A program made the position numbers and the translations under genes. Positions 55,424 through 55,546 of a DNA stretch of 64,000 bases are shown one piece after another. Origin of the DNA: Aquitalea magnusonii (GTDB lineage Bacteria > Pseudomonadota > Gammaproteobacteria > Burkholderiales > Chromobacteriaceae). The DNA lies in contig NZ_AP018823.1 in NCBI RefSeq assembly GCF_002217795.2, forward strand, positions 3,286,001-3,350,000. Reading direction: 5' to 3'. Under the pieces are notes generated by a model that was given only the letters and a program-made list of their open reading frames with translations, was not told the origin of the DNA and did not search any database. Numbering within the stretch: the stretch's first letter is position 1; the number at the start of each line of letters is the position of its first letter.

Positions 55424-55477
55424 ATGAACTCCCGCATCGCATTCGCATCCTTCAACTGGTGGTGGCGCCTCTTCTGA
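55424..55477 (+). CDS. trp-type leader peptide with three consecutive Trp codons
   Basis: A 17-residue frame reading MNSRIAFASFNWWWRLF then TGA at 55475. The three adjacent Trp codons occupy 55457-55465. It lies 126 bases before trpS and just ahead of alternative hairpins ending in an intrinsic terminator, the arrangement of transcription-attenuation leaders. No strong Shine-Dalgarno is seen (GATAGAAAAC precedes the ATG), which is the weak point. Confidence 0.8.
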   Translation: MNSRIAFASFNWWWRLF

Positions 55478-55546
55478 GGTAGCACCGGCGACTGCGCACG
55501 CATACAACCCGGAGGCTGCCGACCAGGCGGATCCGGGTTTTGTTTT
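55461..55546 (+). promoter_or_regulatory. Transcription attenuator upstream of trpS
   Basis: Three structures fit. The 1:2 hairpin pairs GGTG (55461-55464) and CCTC (55468-55471) with GAGG (55476-55479) and CACC (55483-55486), and overlaps the Trp codons. The 2:3 antiterminator pairs GGTAGC (55478-55483) with GCTGCC (55515-55520). The 3:4 terminator pairs AACCCGGA (55506-55513) with TCCGGGTT (55532-55539), with an inner stem using 55516-55520, then TTTTGTTTTG. The second and third exclude each other, and so do the first and second. A ribosome stalled on Trp codons would favour trpS transcription. Confidence 0.82.

Follow-up and report, generated by a model that had tools for sequence, protein, structure and literature searches.

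A predicted Trp-codon attenuator precedes a second tryptophanyl-tRNA synthetase gene in Aquitalea magnusonii and recurs at TrpRS II genes of several bacterial classes

A TrpRS II-type trpS gene and its neighbours

The window analyzed here, a stretch of 64,000 nucleotides from Aquitalea magnusonii, contains a trpS gene on the forward strand at 55604-56626, which encodes a protein of 340 amino acids and is preceded by a Shine-Dalgarno-like AGGAA at 55593-55597 on the same strand. The best-matching PDB chains are named tryptophanyl-tRNA synthetase and tryptophanyl-tRNA synthetase II (424 and 423 bits), both of which we take to be from Deinococcus radiodurans, and the next match reached 232 bits. 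Two tryptophanyl-tRNA synthetases are encoded in the A. magnusonii genome. The other one (G000:C1:286557-287738, in L084) is of the standard type, with about 400 residues and a score that passes the NF008922 NCBIfam cut-off. By its sequence, the product of the gene at 55604-56626 is a second TrpRS of the TrpRS II type and not the standard enzyme, and its gene stands beside a standard trpS, as does the auxiliary trpS of Streptomyces. The original prediction had named the target as a tRNA-Trp charging enzyme, which holds insofar as the product is a TrpRS, with the correction that it is the second of two.

Upstream of trpS and on the same strand lies ppsR, which ends at 55023, about 480 nt before the terminator hairpin described below. 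Between ppsR and the predicted trpS promoter, a repeat of about 110 bp was observed at 55030-55320 in two copies and a remnant. A query with 55030-55250 gave 41 matches in the genome, itself included, and the repeat belongs to a dispersed intergenic family. Directly behind trpS, a chorismate mutase-like ORF (56643-57008, forward strand, with a likely GTG start at 56694) may be the second gene of the attenuated trpS transcript. A relative of this ORF was found downstream of trpS, within the flank examined, in 8 of 80 loci, all of them near relatives (L004-L006 and L008-L012); L011 has two in succession, and in L005 the relative is 0.8 kb further off.

The standard trpS of the same genome has no ORF with adjacent Trp codons (WW ORF) in the 600 nt upstream of it, and of the eight standard trpS genes examined in relatives, one (L122) has a WW ORF, 422 nt upstream. 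The trpE gene of A. magnusonii (L086) is preceded at 54 nt by the short ORF MTFLPAPASWRWQR, whose two Trp codons are not adjacent; no WW ORF was found within 400 nt of trpE, but one lies 458 nt upstream. Trp-bearing short ORFs are therefore not unique to the second trpS in this genome.

Leader ORF, alternative hairpins and predicted terminator

The region between ppsR and trpS contains a leader ORF of 17 codons followed by TGA (55424-55477, forward strand), with its ATG at 55424 and its stop at 55475-55477, which would encode the peptide MNSRIAFASFNWWWRLF. Three consecutive Trp codons, UGG UGG UGG, occupy 55457-55465 on the same strand, three codons 5' of the stop. The ORF is also kept in the upstream regions of relatives, L004 and L005 among them.

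Three pairings can be drawn in the forward-strand RNA. Segments 1 and 2 form a hairpin at 55457-55490, which would be the fold of the untranslated leader; it spans the Trp codons and the stop of the leader ORF, and its energy of -18.6 kcal/mol was equalled by 4 of 200 shuffles. Segments 2 and 3, the putative antiterminator (55478-55520), pair 55478-55488 with 55509-55520, as indicated by folding and by the pairing in relatives (-18.8 kcal/mol, equalled by 6 of 200 shuffles). Segments 3 and 4 form a predicted intrinsic terminator hairpin at 55506-55539, which folded with -23.5 kcal/mol in a 51-nt piece, an energy that none of 200 shuffles equalled. Directly 3' of this stem follows TTGTTTTG, with the U-rich tract of the terminator at 55540-55547 on the forward strand. 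The fold of the whole leader has -50.3 kcal/mol, and 6 of 200 shuffles were as good.

The locus shares its layout with trpL-type attenuators: the Trp codons are consecutive and close to the leader stop, the 1:2, 2:3, and 3:4 pairings are mutually exclusive, and a predicted intrinsic terminator (55506-55547) precedes the structural gene. The 17-codon ORF with three Trp codons, the three pairings, and the U tract had all been proposed beforehand and were borne out by the sequence and the folds. The 57 bases counted between 55546 and the trpS ATG at 55604 were likewise confirmed, and the proposed coordinates proved right to within a few bases.

Predicted promoter and leaderless transcript

Just before the leader lies a promoter-like pair on the forward strand, consisting of a -35-like box TTGACG (55387-55392) and a -10-like box TGTGAT (55411-55416), which jointly give 9 of 12 matches. 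The layout reads TTGACG, 18 nt, TGTGAT, 7 nt, and the leader ATG, and the -10 box lacks the usual A at position 2. A consensus scan of 54800-56000 found neither a terminator nor a promoter, presumably because its rules did not suit a bulged stem or a -10 box without the A that they demand at position 2.

The position of the pair recurs among related leaders. When the upstream regions were aligned on the leader ATG, many showed TTGAC[A/G] about 30 nt upstream and a -10-like box near the ATG. Among 87 nonredundant leaders, 44 have TTGAC between -45 and -27 relative to the leader ATG (1.8 expected), and a promoter of at least 9 of 12 matches stands at the ATG in 42 (0.5 expected). In a search that allowed the -10 box to lie 4-9 nt before the leader ATG, the best one lay at 6-7 nt in 75 of the 87. 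A Shine-Dalgarno sequence of at least 4 nt preceded the leader ORF in 3 of these leaders versus 6.3 expected, which is not above chance.

Given the 7 nt that separate the promoter-like pair from the leader ATG, transcription probably begins with the AUG itself, at a predicted start site at or beside 55424, and the AUG would be the 5' end of the RNA. Leaderless Trp leaders are in print: one is described for S. lividans in an excerpt of PMC8079986, and the trp RNA of S. meliloti, according to an excerpt of PMC7298713, starts at the trpL ATG and is leaderless, resembling the start predicted here. The weak Shine-Dalgarno of the leader had been entered as a caveat to the original prediction. It is indeed weak, but as the transcript is probably leaderless, this is probably no defect. 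A start of trpS transcription downstream of 55546 had been named as one observation that would speak against attenuation; the consensus scan found no promoter there, but it missed the leader promoter too. The promoter-like pair just before the leader, with its position enriched over the 87 leaders, fits a start upstream of 55546.

The Trp leader at TrpRS II genes of other bacteria

TrpRS II was found in 31 of 250 genomes sampled from the order (32 copies, 59-100% identity), the score dropping from 424 to 166 bits after the TrpRS II matches. In a phylum sample, which overlaps with the order sample, it was found at E up to 1e-80 in 26 of 398 genomes, in one of them in two pieces. The 80 related loci from named genomes and 31 from the order sample gave, together with A. 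magnusonii, 111 usable upstream regions, with L069 left out of the leader counts because its upstream sequence was too short. At 73 of these 111 loci, versus 0.8 expected from dinucleotide shuffles, an ORF ends at most 400 nt upstream and has WW among its final eight codons; a wider rule admitting a single Trp found a leader at 86. Another 20 loci, of which three belong to the same order and the remainder to further groups of the phylum, yielded 17 WW leaders and one single-Trp leader. Among 14 loci on plasmids or chromids, picked among 40 of 91 records, a leader was present in ten (Agrobacterium, Methylocystis, Aeromonas, Klebsiella, Vibrio, Photobacterium, Deinococcus, Variovorax, Bosea, and Roseibium), and none was found in Acinetobacter baumannii, Rhizobium leguminosarum, Agathobacter, and Lactobacillus.

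In total, 114 of 145 sampled TrpRS II upstream regions carried a Trp leader and 31 showed none by the search rule; the sampling favours near relatives, includes some duplicates, and is not a census, and thinning leaves 87 leaders. The leaders include those of alpha-, beta-, and gammaproteobacteria and one Deinococcus. The original prediction had held such control of a charging enzyme to be uncommon, a view that, for this type of gene, does not agree with these counts and the printed Streptomyces attenuation discussed below. In the Klebsiella plasmid (L153), the Trp permease gene mtr lies directly upstream of the leader and the TrpRS II gene.

A covariance model was built from 13 Chromobacteriaceae-type sequences and run on 61 Chromobacteriaceae genomes, from which several of these training sequences come. 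The model matched on the same strand, 49-73 nt upstream, at all 58 of the 58 TrpRS II genes. In 56 cases the E-value was below 1e-5, and the remaining two matches (3.4e-4 in G743 and 0.03 in G730) rest on their position and are no better than the weak matches in genomes that lack the gene: of three genomes without TrpRS II, two gave weak matches elsewhere (3.6e-4 and 3.8e-4) and one gave none.

In 107 of the 114 leaders, the last Trp codon precedes the stop by 2-3 codons. This peak partly reflects selection, since the search rule required Trp near the end, but its sharpness is not explained in that way. With the Trp codons at this distance, a ribosome at the stop could cover segment 2. Arg directly follows the Trp run in 92 of the 114 leaders. 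Differences at the three codon positions of the leaders are nearly even (819/733/918), giving little sign of selection on the peptide outside the Trp codons. In L008-L011, L096, L098, L109, L118, and L143-L145, the leader peptide has many Phe and Tyr residues ahead of the Trp codons (for example, FFFSWWRL and FAYYYWWRH), and there the sensed signal could be widened to other aromatic residues.

Conservation of the alternative structures

A hairpin with a T tract (at least 4 T in the next eight bases) was found 3' of 83 of the 86 leaders. The three without a T-tract terminator are from Janthinobacterium (L056, L060, and L080), in which the hairpin is kept and the T run is gone. Three of the 83 terminators are weaker than -10 kcal/mol (L007, L076, and L099), and in L018 and L106 the picked terminator is located past the core hairpin. 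At these 83 loci, a ribosome was placed on the first Trp codon, as if stalled there, and the RNA beyond it was folded and compared with shuffled spacers. At least five 2:3 pairs formed in 80 of the 83, with a mean of -15.5 kcal/mol versus -11.8 for shuffled spacers. The 2:3 pairing beat 95% of the locus's own shuffles in 32 of the 83 loci; A. magnusonii is not among these, and 12% of shuffles matched its 2:3 energy. With the ribosome placed at the stop, the terminator formed in 74 of the 83.

In the 13 Chromobacteriaceae sequences, the 1:2 pairing was kept in 96.1% of alignment cells, compared with 25-71% when the pairing was slid. The 2:3 pairing was kept in 90.6% (25-48% when slid) and barely exceeded the shuffles, 56 of 500 of which reached it, and the 3:4 pairing, at 82.5% (23-57% when slid), was not clearly above them, as 76 of 500 reached it. 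Across 52 Burkholderiales, 3:4 was paired in 97.6%, with one strongly covarying pair (UA/CG, 27/21), and 2:3 in 91.0% with no compensatory change. The pairings are thus kept, compensatory change is scarce, and covariation is modest. Covariation of the stems, proposed beforehand as a check, failed as a decisive test because every segment takes part in two pairings and shows hardly any variation. Related genomes keep both the Trp codons and the alternative pairings, a point on which the original prediction had staked itself.

Proposed attenuation mechanism and alternatives

Taken together, the leader ORF, the alternative structures, the promoter-like boxes and their position, the conservation, and the presence of a second TrpRS make it very probable that a ribosome-mediated transcription attenuator controls the TrpRS II-type trpS, in support of the ribosome stalling originally proposed. 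In the mechanism that we infer, transcription would start at the leader AUG, and a ribosome would load on the leaderless end of the RNA. With sufficient Trp-tRNA, the ribosome would read UGGUGGUGG, reach the UGA, and cover segment 2, in which case 3:4 would form and transcription would stop before trpS. If charging failed, through a shortage of Trp or a blocked standard TrpRS, the ribosome would stall on the Trp codons and cover segment 1, leaving segment 2 to pair with segment 3, and trpS would be transcribed. The switch would in this way make a back-up charging enzyme when charging falls.

The strongest alternative is translational control, in which the last hairpin would hide the Shine-Dalgarno of trpS and the 2:3 pairing would free it. 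Several loci of other classes (L133-L136, L141, and L143-L146) hint at such a translational output: their T tract is displaced, weak, or absent, and a later hairpin, the last one, looks able to cover the Shine-Dalgarno. In A. magnusonii, however, 64 nt separate the end of the 3:4 stem from trpS, the U-rich stretch follows the stem directly, and AGGAA lies outside it, and the T tracts behind 83 of the 86 leaders speak against this output as well. We consider translational control improbable here.

Less probable still, and in our view very unlikely, is that 3:4 terminates constitutively, perhaps transcription that arrives from upstream, and that the WWW ORF is incidental. The region is GC-rich, the same-strand ppsR ends about 480 nt before the hairpin, and the 2:3 energy of the A. 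magnusonii leader is matched by the 12% of shuffles given above, all of which would suit such a terminator. Nevertheless, leader and hairpin recur jointly, with other sequences, at TrpRS II genes of other classes, they were matched at 58 of 58 such genes in Chromobacteriaceae, and the promoter-like boxes sit between ppsR and the hairpin. A T-box or another tRNA- or protein-binding leader, which the T-box control of most synthetase genes in Firmicutes (as stated in an excerpt of PMC1262725) would favour, is hardly credible, as no Rfam family reached threshold in the 64-kb window, no T-box match was found there or at gathering in eight further loci, a search at E up to 10 gave at 55350-55650 only an unrelated snoRNA family on the opposite strand, and a T-box has no need of Trp codons that are in frame and keep a fixed distance to a stop.

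Comparison with known systems

The proposed attenuator is closest to what is in print for Streptomyces. Attenuation of an auxiliary antibiotic-resistant trpS in that genus is the subject, by its title, of Vecchione and Sello 2010 (J. Bacteriol. 192:3565, listed in PMC4787780); an attenuator has been predicted before trpS2 of S. avermitilis (excerpt of PMC1262725), and trpL2 of S. lividans, MMTRTCTQLWRAA, was derived from RNA-seq (excerpt of PMC8079986). As far as these excerpts describe them, the Streptomyces attenuators share with the present case the auxiliary trpS, the short Trp leader on a leaderless transcript, the two hairpins, and W-R near the stop. They differ in that trpL2 of S. lividans has one Trp and, in the excerpt of PMC8079986, no U-rich stretch, whereas the leaders described here usually have two or three Trp codons and a U-tract terminator. 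Streptomyces belongs to the Actinomycetota and the present loci mostly to the Pseudomonadota, and the likeness lies in the leader and in the auxiliary position of the gene. A trpS leader in Pseudomonadota was not reported in the open-licence PMC papers searched; key papers lie outside that set, and an earlier report is possible. Attenuation of an auxiliary trpS as such is already in print for Streptomyces, and what the present loci add is a wide range beyond that genus.

The trpL leaders of E. coli and of S. meliloti trpLE(G) are also alike in having Trp codons near the stop, exclusive pairings, and a terminator. In the control region of E. coli trpL, codons 10 and 11 are Trp and codon 12 is Arg (excerpt of PMC1183508), a succession that the Arg after the Trp run in most TrpRS II leaders resembles. 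The target of trpL is biosynthesis, whereas here it is a charging enzyme. The Rfam family Trp_leader (RF00513) was not found in the 64-kb window, and among 11 relatives its best score was 25.6 bits (L131) against a threshold of 41. By score, the A. magnusonii leader is thus not a member of this family, and judged by its sequence it is predicted to work like the Streptomyces attenuators and trpL. The pheST attenuator is alike in having a synthetase operon as its target; it differs in its Phe codons and in that its product is the sole housekeeping enzyme. For gammaproteobacteria, control of pheST is given as classical attenuation in an excerpt of PMC1262725.

Outside the Pseudomonadota, the TrpRS II gene on a plasmid of Deinococcus sp. 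is preceded by the leader MKGKHAPCQAWWPGS and a terminator. The closest solved relatives of the A. magnusonii enzyme are the TrpRS II chains, presumably of Deinococcus radiodurans. TrpRS II is known for its work with nitric oxide synthase (excerpt of PMC9437257).

Sole-TrpRS lineages and the evolution of the leader

In some genomes, TrpRS II was the only TrpRS found: in 10 of 50 and in 8 of 30 of those to which the named loci belong, in 6 of 31 in the order sample, and in 2 of 21 in the phylum sample, although the absence of a standard trpS is less sure in draft genomes and MAGs (for example, L015 and L067). Among these genomes are L025, L042, L047, L055, L061, L066, L071, L072, L080-L082, and others. 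Massilia with TrpRS II as the sole TrpRS keep the leader and the hairpin, whereas Undibacterium and Methylobacillus of this kind have no leader. In the sole-TrpRS Undibacterium L055 and L082, a terminator-like hairpin was observed without a Trp leader, and L101 and L102 look alike.

Of the 31 leaderless upstream regions, 13 belong to the 26 genomes with TrpRS II as the only TrpRS found. In a raw table, the leader was absent from 13 of 25 sole-TrpRS rows versus 12 of 96 two-enzyme rows; this table leaves out L049, an unclear case from a small MAG, and the 14 plasmid loci, and it counts L075 as leaderless despite a changed homolog of the L065 leader. A link from sole status to leader loss was unsupported, as independent pairs on the tree gave a median p of 0.5. 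The quick tree comprised 136 enzymes after near-identical proteins were thinned from 145, and leader presence needed nine changes on it, suggesting that the leader is largely inherited with the gene.

We tentatively put forward, with the balance tipping slightly to the other side, that the leaderless-transcript Trp attenuator is an old and portable part of TrpRS II genes. As a ready-made sensor of failing charging of tRNA-Trp, it would pass along with the gene from one class, phylum, or plasmid to another, shift from a transcriptional to a translational output in some lineages, and decay in several lineages with TrpRS II as the sole TrpRS. With the loci presented here, the Streptomyces case becomes a pattern over several classes, in which a back-up TrpRS looks wired to the very failure that it would repair. 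If the gene is attenuated in this way, well-fed cells should contain little TrpRS II, and a shortage of Trp or an inhibitor of the main TrpRS should induce it, which would bear on how TrpRS is assessed as a target for drugs against Gram-negative bacteria. The collection is, moreover, a large natural series of leaderless attenuators, and it includes lineages in which the switch was kept or lost after TrpRS II became the sole TrpRS found. One genome (G032) carries two copies of TrpRS II (L104 and L106), one with a leader and one without.
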